Part shown: in pieces, positions 25,813 to 34,589 of the stretch
Layout of the letters: every line of letters begins with the position of its first letter
How positions within the stretch are numbered: position 1 is the first letter of the stretch
Notes under the pieces: model-generated
Told to the model about the DNA's origin: nothing
What the model saw: only the letters and a program-made list of their open reading frames with translations
The model's database searches: none
Made by a program: the position numbers and the translations under genes
Origin: Arcobacter sp.
GTDB taxonomy: Bacteria; Campylobacterota; Campylobacteria; Campylobacterales; Arcobacteraceae
Reading direction: 5' to 3'
DNA length: 64,000 nucleotides
Assembly: GCA_020048055.1 (NCBI GenBank)
Contig: JAIFNA010000003.1
Location: 186,001-250,000 of the forward strand

Positions 25813-26007
25813 TTCTATAAAATCCTTTTTCCATATTTGGGCTGAAAGAATACCATTTTTTCACTTTGTTTAAATTGTCATAAGAATATTGGAAAATCCT
25901 TTGTTTAGGACATTTTAGAGGATAAAAAGCATTAATATTTAATTTATGATTAATACAATACAATACCTACTTTATAAAAATACTATTAAAAATTATTGGG
26001 GATTAAA

Positions 26008-26763
26008 ATGGATTTAACGGTTTTACTTGGTACCCTAGGTGCCCTTGCTTCAATTGCAATTGGAGATTTAATGGAGGGTGGAAATCCTGCACATGTTATC
26101 CATATCACTTCACTTATTATAGTTTTCCCAACAGCACTTTGCGCAGCTGCCGTTGGTACAGAATCTCACGCATTATCTGCTGCTTTTAAAGAGATAAAAA
26201 TAGTATTTACAAAATCAAAAGCTGATACCCCTGCTAGAATAAAACAAATTGTAGAATTTGCAGTTATTGTAAAAAAGAATGGTGTTTTAGCTCTTGAGGC
26301 TGAAGCTGCAAATATTGATGATGATTTTTTTAAAGAAGCCATTAGCATGGTAGTTGATGGTTCAAAAGAGGAACAAATAGAAGAATTTCTTGATCCAATC
26401 ATTGAAGAAACAGAACACTACTACCATGGTGCAACTCACTATTGGCTACTTACAGGGGAAACTTGCCCAGTAATTGGACTTATTGGAGCCGTTTTGGGAC
26501 TAATTCTAGCTCTAGCAAAACTTGATAATCCAGCTGAAATGGCAAAAGGTATTGCAGGGGCGTTTACTGCAACAGTTACAGGAATTGCTGGAGCATATAT
26601 ATTCTTTGGTCCCTGGGGAAATAAATTAAAAGGGAAAGCTCATCTTATAGTTCATGAAAAAAAAGTTATTATGGAAGGTGCAAAAGGCTTAGCTAGAGGT
26701 GATTCTCCAAGTGTTTTAGAGACTAGACTTAAAAATATGATAACCGCCATGCCTTCAAAATAA
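26008..26763 (+). CDS. motA: Flagellar motor stator protein MotA
   Basis: The 251-residue protein has four transmembrane segments in the MotA pattern (about residues 3-20, 30-48, 150-170, 185-205) and a cytoplasmic loop of about 95 residues. The PVIGLIGAVLGLILAL and GIAGAFTATVTGIAGA segments are typical. With MotB it forms the proton-driven stator. The ATG at 26008 follows GGGG with six bases between; an in-frame TTG four codons earlier is rejected. motB follows after 11 bases. Confidence 0.96.
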   Translation: MDLTVLLGTLGALASIAIGDLMEGGNPAHVIHITSLIIVFPTALCAAAVGTESHALSAAFKEIKIVFTKSKADTPARIKQIVEFAVIVKKNGVLALEAEAANIDDDFFKEAISMVVDGSKEEQIEEFLDPIIEETEHYYHGATHYWLLTGETCPVIGLIGAVLGLILALAKLDNPAEMAKGIAGAFTATVTGIAGAYIFFGPWGNKLKGKAHLIVHEKKVIMEGAKGLARGDSPSVLETRLKNMITAMPSK

Positions 26764-26774
26764 CGGATAGATAA

Positions 26775-27533
26775 GTGGCAAAAAAGTGTAAAAAATGTGA
26801 ATGCCCTGCTGGTGAAAAGTGGGCTGTTCCTTTTGCTGACTTTCTTAGTCTTCTCCTTGCTCTTTTTATTGCACTTTATGCTATCGCATCTGTAAACTCT
26901 GAAAAACAGGCTGCTCTAAAAGAGGAATTTTTAAAAATTTATGGAATGAATACAGATTCCCAAACAATGGCAGAGCAACAAGAAGATACTCAAGTTGCAA
27001 CAACAACTGAGGAGCCAACAGAAGGAGAACAAGGCAAAAGTGAACAAATGGCAGCGCAAATCAATGAATTACAAGAAAGCATAGAGAGTGGTAATTTTGC
27101 ACAAGCTGCAGATGGTACTTTTCTTAGCACCCCTATTTTTATCTTATTTGAAAGTGGAAAAGCAGAAATTACAACACCAGCTTCACAATCATTCTTAAAA
27201 AGTATCGCAAAAATAGTATCATTTTTACCACAAAATACAGAGATAAATTTAAAAGGCTTTGCAAGTGAAACTGAAATAGCAAATTCACAATATCAAGATA
27301 GCCTAGAATTATCAACAGCTAGAGCCAATAATGTAATAAGGGAATTAATAAAACTTGGCGTTCCCAAAGAGAAGCTATTTTCAAGTGGGTTTGGTTCAAA
27401 AAATTCAAACAAATCAGATACTACAAATTCAAATAGTAAAGTTGAACTTGAACTCAAAATGCTAAATGCAACTGATGAGATGATGACGCAAGAGGAAGCT
27501 ACAACTATTTTTGATGAAGCACTTCAAAAGTAA
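26775..27533 (+). CDS. motB: Flagellar motor stator protein MotB
   Basis: The 252-residue protein begins with a cysteine-containing CPAGEKWAVPFADF segment and a single transmembrane helix carrying the proton-binding Asp of ADFLSLLLALF near residue 21. A variable linker and an OmpA-like peptidoglycan-binding domain follow (about 115-240, with GFASETEIANSQ and LSTARANNV). It anchors the stator to the wall. It starts with GTG. The N-terminal CPAGEKW motif is shared with Helicobacter MotB. Confidence 0.95.
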   Translation: MAKKCKKCECPAGEKWAVPFADFLSLLLALFIALYAIASVNSEKQAALKEEFLKIYGMNTDSQTMAEQQEDTQVATTTEEPTEGEQGKSEQMAAQINELQESIESGNFAQAADGTFLSTPIFILFESGKAEITTPASQSFLKSIAKIVSFLPQNTEINLKGFASETEIANSQYQDSLELSTARANNVIRELIKLGVPKEKLFSSGFGSKNSNKSDTTNSNSKVELELKMLNATDEMMTQEEATTIFDEALQK

Positions 27534-29458: not shown

Positions 29459-30619
29459 CTATCTTATAAAGCTACCCATCTCCCAAATTGGTGTCATAAT
29501 TGCCAGAACCAACCATAAAACTATTGCTGAAATTATCACAACAAAAAATGGAGTCAAAAATGCAACAAAGTTATCGATATAACCAGAAAGCTCTCTTTTG
29601 TTGATATTTTGTAGGTTGTGTAAAATCTCCTCTAGCCTATTTGACTGTTCACCAACAAGCAACATTCTAAGGGTTACTTCATTAAATATGTTGCGGTTTG
29701 AAAATGCATCATGGATTGATTTACCATCATTTAATTCTTGAATAATAAAACTTATCTGCTCCTCAACAAAAAGATTATCTGTTGTCTCTTTTGCGTAAAC
29801 TAAAGTCTCTTGAAATTTATTTTTTGATTTCATTATTAAATATATACTCAAAAACAATTTATAAAAAATCATATAACGATACATTTTACTGAAATATGGA
29901 ATATAAAGAAATATCATTTTGTGGAAAAAATAACGAAATTTGATAAAGACAAAAACAATAACTAAAAAAGCAACGAAAAAAACAAATAAAATCAACAAAT
30001 AATGTTCATACAAACTATTTTTGACAAATAATAAGATTGTTGTACTGAGCGGTAAGTTTGCTCCAAATTGAGTAAAAAGATGCTCAAATTTTGGAACTAC
30101 AAGGGTAAAAATTGTAAAGATTGAAACTATAAGCGATATTACCAAGACGATTGGATAGCGAAGCGCTTTTCCTATACTTTGTTTTAATTTTTGATTTTCA
30201 TCTAAAAGTTCATAAAGTGATGAGATGGAGTTTGCTAGGTTGCTATTTTCCTCTCCTAACTTTATAAAAACAAGAGGCAAATAGCCTAATATTTTCCTAT
30301 GAATTTCAAGGGATTTGTGTATTGGTTGTCCGTCAAGTAAACTTTTGCTGATTGTTTCTAAAATATCTTTTTTTACACCATTTTTGCTTGATTTGATTAA
30401 AATCTCAACAACATCTTTAAGTGGCAATTTTGAAGCTAACATCATATCCATCTCATAAAACAAACCAACAATATCACCGCTTTTATCTTTTAGATTAAAT
30501 GAAAAATCAACATCCCTTAGTTCCTTTACTTTTATGACATCTGCTGATATTTCATCTTTGATATCAACTATTTTGGAGTCAAGTTTTCCATCTTTTTGAA
30601 AATAAACTTTATATTTCAT
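29459..30619 (-). CDS. Type II secretion/type IV pilus inner-membrane protein, GspF/PilC-like
   Basis: The 386-residue protein has two repeats of the T2SSF domain (about residues 60-185 and 265-380), each followed by membrane helices, with landmarks such as GQPIHKSLEIH and QSIGKALRYPIVLVIS. GspF/PilC is the polytopic core of the assembly platform. I start at the ATG ending 30619; a GTG five codons earlier is possible, and neither has a clear Shine-Dalgarno. The start lies in the final codons of the E-like ATPase gene. Confidence 0.85.
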   Translation of the reverse strand: MKYKVYFQKDGKLDSKIVDIKDEISADVIKVKELRDVDFSFNLKDKSGDIVGLFYEMDMMLASKLPLKDVVEILIKSSKNGVKKDILETISKSLLDGQPIHKSLEIHRKILGYLPLVFIKLGEENSNLANSISSLYELLDENQKLKQSIGKALRYPIVLVISLIVSIFTIFTLVVPKFEHLFTQFGANLPLSTTILLFVKNSLYEHYLLILFVFFVAFLVIVFVFIKFRYFFHKMIFLYIPYFSKMYRYMIFYKLFLSIYLIMKSKNKFQETLVYAKETTDNLFVEEQISFIIQELNDGKSIHDAFSNRNIFNEVTLRMLLVGEQSNRLEEILHNLQNINKRELSGYIDNFVAFLTPFFVVIISAIVLWLVLAIMTPIWEMGSFIR

Positions 30620-32015
30620 GGGAGTAATATTCACTCATTGAAGTTGTTCCATCTAACACTTTTGTGTAAATATTTTCATTGATTGTTTTGTATTTAAGAT
30701 AAGCCAATATGTTTTCAATATCAACTTGATTTATCATCTTTGCAACTTCATCATCAACTTGTAAATACTCAGTTACAATAGTTCTTCCATCATAACCACT
30801 AAAATTACATTTTGGACAACCAACACTTCTATAAGTTTTAATGCCGCTCTCGTCTATTTCCTCTTTACAGTATGGACAAAGAACTCTTATAAGTTTTTGA
30901 GACACAATAAGCCTTAAAACCGAAGCTATCAAATATGCTTTGGCATCAAGATCTAAAAGGCGATTTATAGTCTTAATTGCATCATTTGTGTGTAAAGTTG
31001 CGATTACTAGATGTCCAGTCAAAGAGGCTTGAATTGCTATTTTTAAAGCGTTCTCATCTCGTATCTCCCCTATCATAATTACATCTGGGTCTTGCCTTAG
31101 GATATTTTTTAAAACAATCTCATAACTAAGCCCTATCTCCTCATTTATCTGAACTTGCATAACTCCATCTATATTGTATTCGATTGGGTCTTCTATTGTT
31201 ATTATTTTTTTATTTTTCCTATCTAATTCATTTAGAATTGAATACATTGTTGTTGTTTTACCACTTCCTGTTGCCCCTGTTACTAAAATCATACCGTGTG
31301 AAAAATTGATATTTTTTAAAATAGCCCCGTAAACATCTTTAGAAAAACCAATATTTTCAAGCCCTAAAAACGCTTTTTTGTTATCTAAAATACGAACAAC
31401 AATAGACTCGCCACAAATTGTAGGCAAAATCGATACTCTAAAATCAAAATCAACTCCATCAAGATTTTGTGAAAATCTACCATTTTGTGGAACTCTTTTT
31501 TGTGAAATATCTAAAGATGAAAACATTTTCAAAGAAGAGCTTAAAATAGGATACAAACCAATATCAAAACGGAAAAACTGACTCAATTTGCCATCTATTC
31601 TAAATCTTATAATTATTGCATTTTTTAGTGTTTCAAAATGTATATCACTGCTTCTAAAACTTATTGCACAAAGAAACAACATTTTTAGAAACTCTTTTAT
31701 ATGAGATTCATAAAAATTACTATCTTCAAGCCCTACAGATTTAGATGCTATATTAAATAGTGAATATTTATAAGTTAAATTGTGCAGCTCAAAGTCCAAC
31801 ATCTTTTGTGTGATATTGATATACTTTAAAGGTTTAGAAAAAAGTTTATCTTTGTTTTTTGCAAATTCAGATTTATCAACAACTGCAATAAGTATAAATA
31901 TCTCAAACTCCATAATTGGCAAAAAACAAAACTCTTTTAACATCTCAATTGAAATTTTATTTACAAACCCATAGTCGATAAGATAGCTATCAAGATCTTC
32001 AATCCCATCAATCAT
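30609..32015 (-). CDS. Type II secretion/type IV pilus assembly ATPase, GspE/PilB-like
   Basis: The 468-residue ATPase has Walker A GATGSGKTT near residue 230, ITIEDPIEYN (Asp box) near 256, Walker B DPDVIMIGEIRD near 290, and a His box around LVIATLHTNDA near 315. A tetracysteine zinc motif (CPYC and CPKC, near 370 and 395) is typical of GspE/PilB. It drives pseudopilus or pilus polymerisation. AAAGGAG lies seven bases before the ATG at 32015. The N-terminal domain is short and diverged. Confidence 0.9.
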   Translation of the reverse strand: MIDGIEDLDSYLIDYGFVNKISIEMLKEFCFLPIMEFEIFILIAVVDKSEFAKNKDKLFSKPLKYINITQKMLDFELHNLTYKYSLFNIASKSVGLEDSNFYESHIKEFLKMLFLCAISFRSSDIHFETLKNAIIIRFRIDGKLSQFFRFDIGLYPILSSSLKMFSSLDISQKRVPQNGRFSQNLDGVDFDFRVSILPTICGESIVVRILDNKKAFLGLENIGFSKDVYGAILKNINFSHGMILVTGATGSGKTTTMYSILNELDRKNKKIITIEDPIEYNIDGVMQVQINEEIGLSYEIVLKNILRQDPDVIMIGEIRDENALKIAIQASLTGHLVIATLHTNDAIKTINRLLDLDAKAYLIASVLRLIVSQKLIRVLCPYCKEEIDESGIKTYRSVGCPKCNFSGYDGRTIVTEYLQVDDEVAKMINQVDIENILAYLKYKTINENIYTKVLDGTTSMSEYYSHEI

Positions 32016-32811
32016 CAAACATCTCCTTTATAGCAACTTTCCCATTCTTTTCCAATGTCAATTTATCTTTTTCAATTGCAACAATTTTATATCCATCAAA
32101 ACTTTGACCAATTTTTAGCCATTCACCACCAACCAAAACATATTCACCAACAATTGCGATTGTTTTTGATCTTGGCAAAACCTCAACATAGCTATCATCA
32201 ATCGCCTCATCAAAATTTATATTTTCGCTTTTTATATCTACTGCTTTTTTCTCGCCTTCAATCTTTTCTTGCTTAACTTGTATTGTTGGCTTATCGATTA
32301 TAACAACTTTTTGACTTTCTTCATCCAAATTAGCATCACTTTTTTTGGCATCTATAATTTGAAACAATTTAATATCGGCTACCTTATCCTTATCCCCAAA
32401 TGTGACCGTTAAAGATTTATTTCTCACTTCCAAAATAGTTTTTGCAATCAAATTATTATCCTTTTCCTCCAGCTCTAAAGATAGAACTTTTGTTGTTTTT
32501 TCAATAATCTTTAAAAATAAAATAACTAGTGGCTCACTTCCAATGAGCTCCAATGATAATCTACTTTTATCAAAATGAAACGCCTCAATTTTAATCCCAA
32601 TATCATTTGCCAATTTTTCATAAGATTGCAAAATCAAAATATGTGATTTTTCATCAATCACTTCACTATTAATATTTGTAAATTGTATGACTTTATCTAC
32701 TTTTGATGGTGGGAAATTTAGCCAGAAAAGTAAAAAAACAAAAAGTGGTAAAGTATACAAGATAAATTTTTCTCTAGTCGGTAACGCAACAAAATAGGTA
32801 TTAAAATTCAA
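32008..32811 (-). CDS. Secretion-platform protein, GspM/PilO- and GspC/PilP-like features
   Basis: The 267-residue protein has one N-terminal transmembrane helix (about residues 17-35), a periplasmic alpha/beta domain (50-150), a charged linker (160-205) and a C-terminal all-beta domain (215-267, with VGEYVLVGGEWLKIGQ) like the HR domain of GspC/PilP. This layout suggests a fused or shortened PilO plus PilP component. Sequence similarity is weak, so the call rests on topology and gene order. I choose TTG at 32811, preceded by AGAGG at six bases, overlapping the upstream gene by 11. Confidence 0.55.
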   Translation of the reverse strand: MNFNTYFVALPTREKFILYTLPLFVFLLFWLNFPPSKVDKVIQFTNINSEVIDEKSHILILQSYEKLANDIGIKIEAFHFDKSRLSLELIGSEPLVILFLKIIEKTTKVLSLELEEKDNNLIAKTILEVRNKSLTVTFGDKDKVADIKLFQIIDAKKSDANLDEESQKVVIIDKPTIQVKQEKIEGEKKAVDIKSENINFDEAIDDSYVEVLPRSKTIAIVGEYVLVGGEWLKIGQSFDGYKIVAIEKDKLTLEKNGKVAIKEMFDD

Positions 32812-33673
32812 TTTCCACCTCTGCCAAAACAAAATCACCACCAATTTGTACAATTTTTATAATTTTTACACCATTAACATCACTAGCCAAAAAATTGTAT
32901 AAATTATCTTTCTTTCCAAAAAAAGATGTATAGATTTTAGTTTCACATTTGAATGATTTTAAACTTAGACCATATCTCTTAATTCCCTCCCCAAGCTTAA
33001 TCAAAGCTGGCATCACTAATCTTTTTTGCTCATTTATATCTATTTCATTTGATTTGACAAAAATAGGGCGTTGTTCACTTTGATTAAATCCATAAAAATA
33101 AAAGAATCCAAATATAGCCAAAGAAAAATAAATTAAAAAAATATGTCCATCATATCTTGTTTCAATTTTTTTAAAATTCAAATAAGCCGTAGCTCTATAT
33201 TGTTTTTTATATTCCATAAATAACTCATAGGAGATGTGATAGATATTAGATACTTCAAAACTATATGTAAAGTTGATATATTGTTCGATATCTTCTTGGC
33301 TATAATTCTTATTTTCTTTAAAAAGATGTAATTTACCATCACAAAAAATAGCAAAAAACTCTTTTGTAATAAAAATATCATACCCTATTGGCTCAATCTC
33401 AAGCTCTTTGTAGTATTGCTCTAAAAATTGGGGTTCCAAAACAACTCTTTTTTTATTTGTGGAAAAAAGATAAATCTCATAAGTTTTACTCTTCTCAATA
33501 TAAATAAAATAAACAACTGGGGTTTTTGGAATTACAATTTTGGATTGGATAAGTGATGTTTGTAAAAATGAGTTAAGATATTTTGGTTTAATCTCTTCTG
33601 TAACTTGTTTTGTTATGTGTGATATTTGTTTAAGTTGGATAATTTGTGGATTAATATCTCTAAACCACTTCAT
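32801..33673 (-). CDS. Secretion-platform protein, GspL/PilM-N-like topology
   Basis: The 290-residue protein has a cytoplasmic part of about 185 residues, one transmembrane helix (about 186-205, IFLIYFSLAIFGFFYFYGF) and a periplasmic ferredoxin-like part (about 215-290). This is the arrangement of GspL or a PilM-PilN fusion, placed ahead of the M/C-like and E-like genes. I see no actin-like ATP motif. The function is inferred from topology and neighbours. It follows era after 37 bases. Confidence 0.5.
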   Translation of the reverse strand: MKWFRDINPQIIQLKQISHITKQVTEEIKPKYLNSFLQTSLIQSKIVIPKTPVVYFIYIEKSKTYEIYLFSTNKKRVVLEPQFLEQYYKELEIEPIGYDIFITKEFFAIFCDGKLHLFKENKNYSQEDIEQYINFTYSFEVSNIYHISYELFMEYKKQYRATAYLNFKKIETRYDGHIFLIYFSLAIFGFFYFYGFNQSEQRPIFVKSNEIDINEQKRLVMPALIKLGEGIKRYGLSLKSFKCETKIYTSFFGKKDNLYNFLASDVNGVKIIKIVQIGGDFVLAEVEIEF

Positions 33674-33710: not shown

Positions 33711-34589
33711 TCAGAAATCGTATCCTAATTCTCTAAGACCCTCTTTATTTTTACTCCAGCCTCTTTTAACAGAGACAAAAAGTTCAAGATAAACTGTTTT
33801 ACCGATTAGTTTTTCAATTTTTTTTCTAGCATTTAAGCCTATTCTTTTTATAGCAACTCCACCTTCGCCTATAATCATCCCTTTTTGAGTTTGTTTTTCA
33901 ACAATTATTGTTGCTTTAATAACTTCAACTTTTGGTTTCTCTTCTACTTTATTAATAATAACATCAGCTTCGTAAGGTATTTCGTCACTGATATTATCAA
34001 AAACGGATTCTCTTATGAATTCCCTATAAATATCTCTTAGATTAGTTGTTGTTAAAATTTCTGTATCAAAAAGATATGGTTGTTCTGGAAGATACTTTAT
34101 AACTTCATCTAAAAGATGATGTTGCTTTTTCCCTTTTTTGATCGAAATTGGGATTATCGCTTTAAACTTATCGTTGTATTTTTGATATTCATCCATTTTT
34201 GCCATAACTTCGCCACTTGTAACAAAGTCTGTTTTGGTAAGCAAAAGTAGATGTGGGGTATCTTTTTTTTGTTCATCTAAAAATCTTTCATAATGAACTA
34301 TTTTATCTGTAACAGGTGCTAAAAAAAGTATTAAATCACACTCCCCAATAGCTTTTAAAGCTTCTTCTAGCATAAACTGATTAATAAGCTTCTCTTGATG
34401 ATGAAGCCCTGGAGTATCCACAAAAATAATCTGATCATCACCATGCATAACGATTGTATTTGATCTTTTTCGTGTTGCATTTGCTTTATGTGATACCATG
34501 TTTATTTTTTCACCAACAAGCCAGTTTAAAAGTGAACTTTTACCAGCATTTGGACGACCGATGGTGCTTACATAACCACATTTTGTCAT
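33711..34589 (-). CDS. era: GTPase Era
   Basis: The 292-residue protein has the G domain motifs GRPNAGKSS (G1, residue 11), VDTPGLHH (G3, near 57), TKTD (G4, near 116) in place of the common NKxD, and a C-terminal KH domain with GEGGVAIKRIG near 245. Era binds the 3' end of 16S rRNA and helps 30S maturation. Length is normal. The T-K-T-D variant is worth noting but occurs in some GTPases. Confidence 0.94.
   Translation of the reverse strand: MTKCGYVSTIGRPNAGKSSLLNWLVGEKINMVSHKANATRKRSNTIVMHGDDQIIFVDTPGLHHQEKLINQFMLEEALKAIGECDLILFLAPVTDKIVHYERFLDEQKKDTPHLLLLTKTDFVTSGEVMAKMDEYQKYNDKFKAIIPISIKKGKKQHHLLDEVIKYLPEQPYLFDTEILTTTNLRDIYREFIRESVFDNISDEIPYEADVIINKVEEKPKVEVIKATIIVEKQTQKGMIIGEGGVAIKRIGLNARKKIEKLIGKTVYLELFVSVKRGWSKNKEGLRELGYDF

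Follow-up and report, generated by a model that had tools for sequence, protein, structure and literature searches.

Four adjacent minus-strand genes, here called L, X, E and F in their order, occupy positions 29459-33673 of a 64,000-nucleotide stretch of an Arcobacter sp. genome (Arcobacteraceae; assembly GCA_020048055.1, contig JAIFNA010000003.1, positions 186,001 to 250,000), which we refer to as the window. They form a reduced operon of the type that encodes the mannose-sensitive haemagglutinin (MSHA) pilus and the Cts machine of Campylobacter jejuni, and probably a competence-type platform. More specifically, we propose, with a probability of roughly 0.64, that L-X-E-F encodes the inner-membrane half of a type IV-filament machine for DNA uptake, the Arcobacteraceae counterpart of Cts, whose partner would be a secretin of the GspD type, the type known from the type II secretion system (T2SS). 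The features concerned are as follows.

32801..33673, minus strand: L, GspL/MshI-like, 290 amino acids (aa); open reading frame (ORF) with a cytoplasmic domain, one transmembrane segment at 178-196 (hydropathy) and a small periplasmic domain
32008..32853, minus strand: X, 281 aa; periplasmic fusion of a PilO/MshJ-like N-terminal part and a PilP/MshK/CtsR-like C-terminal part (profile comparison)
30609..32018, minus strand: E, assembly ATPase of the PilB/GspE/MshE/CtsE kind, 469 aa, without an MshEN domain (Pfam, motifs)
29459..30634, minus strand: F, inner-membrane platform protein of the PilC/GspF/MshG/CtsF kind, 391 aa (Pfam, transmembrane segments)
33711..34589, minus strand: era GTPase gene (MMR_HSR1 and KH_2 domains), a positional marker outside the machine

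All four ORFs are intact in an ORF scan, with overlaps of 53 (L/X), 11 (X/E) and 26 (E/F) bases between neighbours; era lies upstream, and the other neighbour is a SLAC1-type transporter gene on the opposite strand. The first-pass annotation had described a secretion or pilus platform without secretin or pilins, and both parts of this description hold. E is a clear T2SSE protein (4e-117, Pfam scan) with whole Walker A, Asp, Walker B and His boxes and two CxxC pairs, and F has two T2SSF stretches (6.5e-33) and three transmembrane segments by hydropathy; among the window genes there is no secretin, pilin or prepilin peptidase gene beside the four, and the prepilin-motif scan gave no match adjoining them. 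X, whose TTG start codon is uncertain, has a transmembrane segment at 30-48 and a weaker segment at 99-117 (hydropathy), and gave only sub-threshold Pfam matches, to secretion-ring C-terminal domains; L matched no family in the Pfam scan. AlphaFold models of these two upstream proteins (six sequences each) had mean predicted local distance difference test scores of 41 and 47, too low for use.

The conservation of the operon is far beyond chance. In a set of 104 Arcobacteraceae genomes, many of them drafts, E orthologues (at least 450 bits against the E profile) are present in 92, counting the broken copies of G003 and G007, and were counted absent in twelve (G005, G018, G019, G041, G047, G052, G065, G067, G073, G074, G088 and G089). 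L, sought with a single-sequence query, was found in 56 of the 104, and the matches in its alignment include Aliarcobacter metagenome-assembled genomes and Arcobacter caeni, the latter carrying era-L-X-E-F. L-X-E-F is contiguous in 33 of 45 family loci from 43 genomes, some of these loci being truncated at contig ends or interrupted by insertions; era is directly upstream of L in 29 of the 45 and lies within two ORFs of it in 34, and a secretin gene is found in none (723 kilobases (kb) in total).

The origin of this arrangement is suggested by sixteen E loci of other Campylobacterales families (L133-L148), collected by a search that scored four candidates per genome and so did not cover all weaker ATPases. 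In seven, which represent six families (L133, L142, L143, L144, L145, L146 and L148), era precedes a full operon of the order A (506-522 aa), B (210-222), C (140-159), secretin (500-531), two or three genes, E (579-598) and F (411-417), the two genes after the secretin encoding an ATPase and a tetratricopeptide repeat (TPR)-like protein. In L145, Pfam identifies B as PilO (1.2e-4) and the post-secretin gene as an AAA ATPase (AAA_22, 2e-13), followed by the TPR-like protein. This order matches that of the MSHA operon, mshI-J-K-L-M-N-E-G. The MshEN domain was found in the E proteins of L145 (1.4e-18) and L148, the two other-family copies scanned; the same kind of domain scan did not find it in window E, nor in the CtsE-like protein of L135, a C. 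jejuni-like locus with the order C-secretin-ATPase-TPR-E-F and lengths of 103-470-202-195-519-393 aa. These lengths fit those listed in the available part of PMC8308473 for CtsR (105), CtsD (472), CtsP (202), CtsX (195) and CtsE (519 aa), so that the second half of the operon corresponds to ctsR-D-P-X-E-F. Relative to the MSHA/Cts-type operon, the four genes lack the secretin, counterparts of MshM and MshN, and the MshEN domain of E, which agrees with the earlier suggestion of a reduced machine.

Judged from its sequence, X is a fusion of two neighbouring genes of this operon. In hhalign comparisons the N-terminal part of the X family matches B, in the PilO position (E-value 2.7e-9, probability 96), and its C-terminal part matches C, in the PilP/CtsR position (5.5e-15, probability 98), and it is because of these two matches that we regard X as B and C fused; T2SS C (5.2e-6, probability 86) and T2SS M (1.4e-3) also match, and decoys and reversed profiles gave 0.11 or worse. 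Proteins in the C/CtsR position match the C-terminal half of X in blastp as well (8e-6 for L141, 5e-4 for L136). The first-pass annotation had supposed that X merges PilO- and PilP-type parts, and this is borne out: the parts are separate neighbouring genes elsewhere, and X aligns with both in order. For L, the C-terminal domain matches the C-terminal end of A, in the MshI position (8.4e-5, probability 60), and there are matches to T2SS M (1.7e-4, probability 49) and T2SS L (1e-3, probability 21), so that T2SS M matches nearly as well as A, with the best decoy at 0.03. The earlier reading of the first gene as L-like survives as regards position, topology and a weak C-terminal-domain match, which tentatively suggest a GspL/MshI identity. 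A profile search against the PDB gave X a weak match to PilO (3jc8, E-value 0.05) behind two unrelated chains, and gave L weak matches, none of them sensible.

In trees, the E copies of the family form one clade (support 100/100), as do the F copies (98/98), both apart from the T2SS and other-family copies; the best MSHA/Cts-type match of window E shows 42.5% identity, against 38.0% for the best T2SS match. When the locus is set against the models of known systems, E and F stand in the places of mshE and mshG, two of the mandatory genes of the MSH pilus model (mshA, E, G, L and M in the available text of PMC6668835). No mshL is found at the locus, and the T2SS secretin of the genome falls outside the MshL group (its other two secretins are not in that tree); MshM was not found in the window operon or in 27 family loci compared with MshM-position references, no genome-wide search having been made, and the solitary prepilin genes that are present were not assigned to MshA. 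From Cts there is the E-F pair with a CtsR-type protein, in the form of the C-terminal half of X; a CtsD-type secretin, CtsP and CtsX are absent from the operon, and the ten lone secretins placed in a tree are of the GspD type. From the T2SS there are GspE and GspF counterparts, in clades of their own, with neither a GspG-type pseudopilin nor a secretin at the locus.

The search of the whole genome (2.0 Mb in 18 contigs, among them C2, C3 and C15) that had been proposed with the first description gave three secretin matches and ten prepilin-motif places over the family cut-off, all outside the window, as is the one prepilin peptidase; ComEC is present. Three T2SSE-family ATPases were found with PF00437, belonging to the T2SS, to a divergent pilus cluster and to the window, and none of them is of PilT size. 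An apparently complete T2SS has D, E and two pseudopilins on C3, where L, M, N and C were named by gene order and size, and G, H and F at C2:158.7-161 kb, where the T2SSG match sits with the F of that system. Because the T2SS comes with an E and an F of its own, we rejected the operon as its E-F part; the platform label given earlier is retained with another meaning, since the four genes are a reduced MSHA/Cts-type operon and not this genome's T2SS, which is encoded elsewhere. At C2:248-266 kb, the divergent, type IV pilus-like cluster (L022) has an E of its own, a weak F match, prepilins and a secretin just under the Pfam cut-off. At C2:78-90 kb (L021) lies an apparent filamentous-phage prophage with a secretin at C2:83.7 kb and, by reading, Zot-like and replication-like ORFs; this secretin was rejected as the partner of the operon on account of these neighbours. 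One solitary prepilin gene immediately precedes priA, at C3:62.4 kb, and another neighbours proC, at C15:73.4 kb. The place before priA is also that of cj0683, a prepilin-like gene of C. jejuni whose product interacts with CtsE by two-hybrid assay and whose loss almost abolishes DNA uptake (PMC10046745, in the text available), and a table of PMC8308473 gives ctsT as cj1077, the number adjacent to proC, cj1076.

The proposed partner is a secretin that outlives its own secretion system. Secretins (PF00263) occur in at least 100 of the 104 family genomes and a T2SS E in 43, weaker secretin matches being not all covered; secretins were typed by their best blastp match, and those with no T2SS genes in the surrounding 3-15 kb covered are called lone. 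Whole lone GspD-type secretins measure 424-657 aa, and the GspD N0 domain is present in all four that were scanned. In a 36-row tree, ten lone secretins and the T2SS GspDs form one group (100/100) and the era-operon secretins a separate one (100/100); this placement among T2SS GspDs led us to reject the lone secretin as a displaced MshL or CtsD. A quick tree of 98 rows (78 lone, 17 T2SS-linked and 3 outgroup copies, leaving out L256, a duplicate of L212) shows lone and T2SS-linked copies interleaved, with nine changes, six of them forced by well-supported branches, several branches being long. The lone genes, counted over all genomes with short contigs and stretches included, have both of two characteristic flanks in 45 of 78 loci, one in 13 and none in 20, the flanks consisting of an IMPACT/236-aa gene at one end and 204/364-aa genes at the opposite end. 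The same flanks enclose a whole T2SS operon in seven of 15 T2SS loci (G010, G021, G030, G036, G083, G091 and G099), in some with a few extra ORFs, and G069 has one flank; five further genomes (G007, G035, G055, G068 and G094) carry a T2SS without such flanks, with a lone gspD at the IMPACT site. Since the same flanks enclose the whole T2SS, the lone gspD at the IMPACT site is a remnant, the T2SS operon having been whittled down to gspD there repeatedly. Elsewhere, G044, of the same genus as the window, has no T2SS E, and its lone GspD is nested within the T2SS GspDs of the genus, among unrelated neighbours.

Lone GspD is present in 55 of 61 genomes without a T2SS E and in 51 of the 55 that lack a T2SS E and have E. 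The four exceptions (G017, G025, G046 and G095) are fragmented, the secretin of G095 being outside the classified set. Among the six genomes with neither E nor T2SS E, G018, G019, G065 and G074 have lone GspD, and G005 and G047 do not; in G005 one of two secretin matches was examined and is not GspD-type, the other being weaker. E also tends to occur with ComEC, by Fisher tests that ignore kinship and draft quality, with drafts losing genes together and a weak ComEC match in G028 counted as present: among 104 genomes 89 have both, 3 E only, 7 ComEC only and 5 neither (p 4e-4), and among the 89 at least 90% complete the counts are 79/1/5/4 (p 2.5e-4).

Several points, including the nature of those tests, weigh against our proposal. 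The association with ComEC fades in the 80 genomes at least 95% complete (76/0/3/1, p 0.05), and G005 and G067 are among the genomes with ComEC only, G005 retaining it without E. For G017, G025 and G046, where E is present, no secretin is among the PF00263 matches listed, and conversely lone GspD occurs without E in G067 (complete and T2SS-positive), in G041 and in the four drafts named above, which are fragmented. Lone GspD is also kept in many T2SS-positive genomes, and because of this the sharing of a T2SS secretin is not the rule where a T2SS exists. The E and F trees show three separate clades without setting ours nearer to MSHA/Cts than to the T2SS; the N-terminal domain of L matched nothing in the profile comparisons, and the linkage of prepilin genes to priA and proC was checked in the window's genome only. 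The case is comparative throughout. A T2SS and E with no lone GspD located occur in 16 genomes, including that of the window; all secretin matches were covered in eight of them (G000, G010, G021, G036, G045, G049, G091 and G099, the window's genome being one) and part of them in the other eight (G030, G033, G043, G048, G050, G051, G083 and G092). In the window's genome none of the three secretin matches, all covered, is a lone GspD.

Taken as a whole, the following pathway can be envisioned. An MSHA-type operon would have lost MshL, MshM and MshN, its E would have shed the MshEN domain, and its MshJ and MshK would have fused into X. In the resulting machine, ATP hydrolysis by E would drive F, which may pull pilins, encoded singly elsewhere (for example beside priA and proC) and presumably trimmed by the one prepilin peptidase of the genome, into a short filament. 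L would link E with the periplasmic domain of X, whose PilP-like end could dock on the N0 domain of the outer-membrane secretin; DNA would pass the secretin with the filament and enter through ComEC. In relatives without a T2SS the partner would be the lone gspD left from the dismantled operon, and in the organism of the window most likely GspD as encoded by the intact T2SS, serving both machines. On the simplest reading, the platform took up GspD after losing its MshL-type secretin, and gspD would thereby have been protected from loss. We consider it an even bet that the platform gave up its own secretin for that of a co-resident T2SS, that this dependence preserved gspD at each loss of the T2SS, and that in the organism of the window one GspD both exports protein and imports DNA.

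A link to natural transformation comes from Arcobacter butzleri, for which the available part of PMC8308473 reports transformability, a ctsE homologue of 453 aa and a pilG homologue of 396 aa with neighbouring locus tags, and a 'ctsD' of 478 aa with only 20.9% identity to CtsD; ctsP, ctsX and ctsR were not found in that survey. Proteins of the same sizes occur among the family E, F and lone GspD proteins, a comparison of size only. Since A. butzleri is transformable with same-sized homologues, the platform is probably a competence machine, and L and X would be its unrecognised inner-membrane parts.

Among the other explanations, that the operon builds an adhesive or motility pilus of the MSHA kind instead of a DNA-uptake filament is unlikely, if conceivable. 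Its gene order does come from an MSHA-type operon, and MSH systems are described in Epsilonproteobacteria in the accessible text of PMC6668835; yet the MshEN domain is absent from E, no ATPase of PilT size is among the three of the genome, E tends to occur with ComEC, and C. jejuni CtsE is termed essential for transformation in the part of PMC10046745 available. We also think it distinctly improbable that the platform is as proposed and its partner is the pilus-cluster or the phage-like secretin instead of GspD. Both exist in the genome and could in principle serve any filament, but the former lies in a cluster that includes an E of its own, a weak F match and prepilins, the latter sits among genes that read as a filamentous prophage, and a GspD-type secretin is present in all but four of the T2SS-less relatives with E, three of these having none among the matches listed and G095 being outside the classification.

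Much less credible is a second, slimmed assembly platform for the T2SS of the same genome, which was already disfavoured. It could draw on the matches of X to GspC and of L to T2SS M, but X fits the parts in the MSHA/Cts positions better, the T2SS has an E on C3, an F on C2 and, by order, L, M, N and C of its own, and E persists in 55 genomes without a T2SS E. That the four genes are a non-functional, decaying remnant in the organism of the window seems hardly believable: no dedicated secretin was found and insertions break the operon in four relatives, yet all frames are open, the catalytic motifs are intact and the gene order is conserved throughout the family.

The platform thus proposed for DNA uptake resembles C. 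jejuni Cts in its adjacent and homologous E and F, in the homology of the C/CtsR-position protein to the C-terminal half of X, in the lack of MshEN seen also in L135 and in the prepilin gene before priA. It differs in having L, in its fused MshJ- and MshK-like parts, in its lack of secretin, CtsP-like and CtsX-like genes, and in the secretin of its relatives, which is GspD-type and located elsewhere in the genome. With the MSHA operon of other families it shares the place beside era, the order of the remaining parts and the lack of a prepilin peptidase at the locus; beyond the losses and the fusion already described, L, with 290 aa, is shorter than the 506-522 aa of the MshI-position protein in the seven era-linked loci. 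The T2SS has E, F and L-like parts in common with it and supplies the type of its presumed partner, but no secretin or pseudopilin gene lies at the locus and a separate, apparently complete T2SS exists in the same genome. A T2SS secretin with a second client has a precedent in phage CTXphi, which uses the host secretin EpsD; the client there is a phage, whereas here it would be a putative cellular DNA-uptake filament. Because PMC6668835, in its available text, calls the co-option of secretins from other systems very common, the principle is already known. In the titles and abstract openings among the literature matches listed, we found neither a lone gspD at a T2SS site nor a T2SS secretin in DNA uptake, and a term search of the main text of a comparative-genomics paper on the Arcobacteraceae (PMC10336517) found no mention of secretin, T2SS or competence.

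If the proposal is true, one outer-membrane pore would serve two machines with different cargo in opposite directions, which would bear on how secretins recognise their inner-membrane partners; close relatives with the whole T2SS operon or a lone gspD at the same site offer a natural experiment. It would also explain why the A. butzleri survey, as far as its available text goes (PMC8308473), reports CtsP, CtsX and CtsR as missing and so divergent a CtsD.

The operon has been altered further in some relatives. In L153, L154 and L163 (G037, G039 and G070) a single gene lies between era and E, either a further fusion or a loss of L and X. In four relatives, all of one genus (G003, G005, G007 and G008), the operon is interrupted by mobile elements: Mu-like transposase genes lie within it in G003 (L080/L149) and G008 (L083/L150), the latter also with phage tail genes, tyrosine-recombinase genes adjoin the split E of G007 (L151-L152), and in G005 (L165) there is a DDE transposase gene in the operon and E is lost, in a complete genome. 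Competence genes may be favoured targets of mobile elements. The family also has a second, recurrent type of secretin cluster (group 'oth'; L121 and L123), whose ATPase measures about 528 aa. Within the window, adjacent MotA-like and MotB-like genes lie at 25996-27533, by reading of the sequence only.

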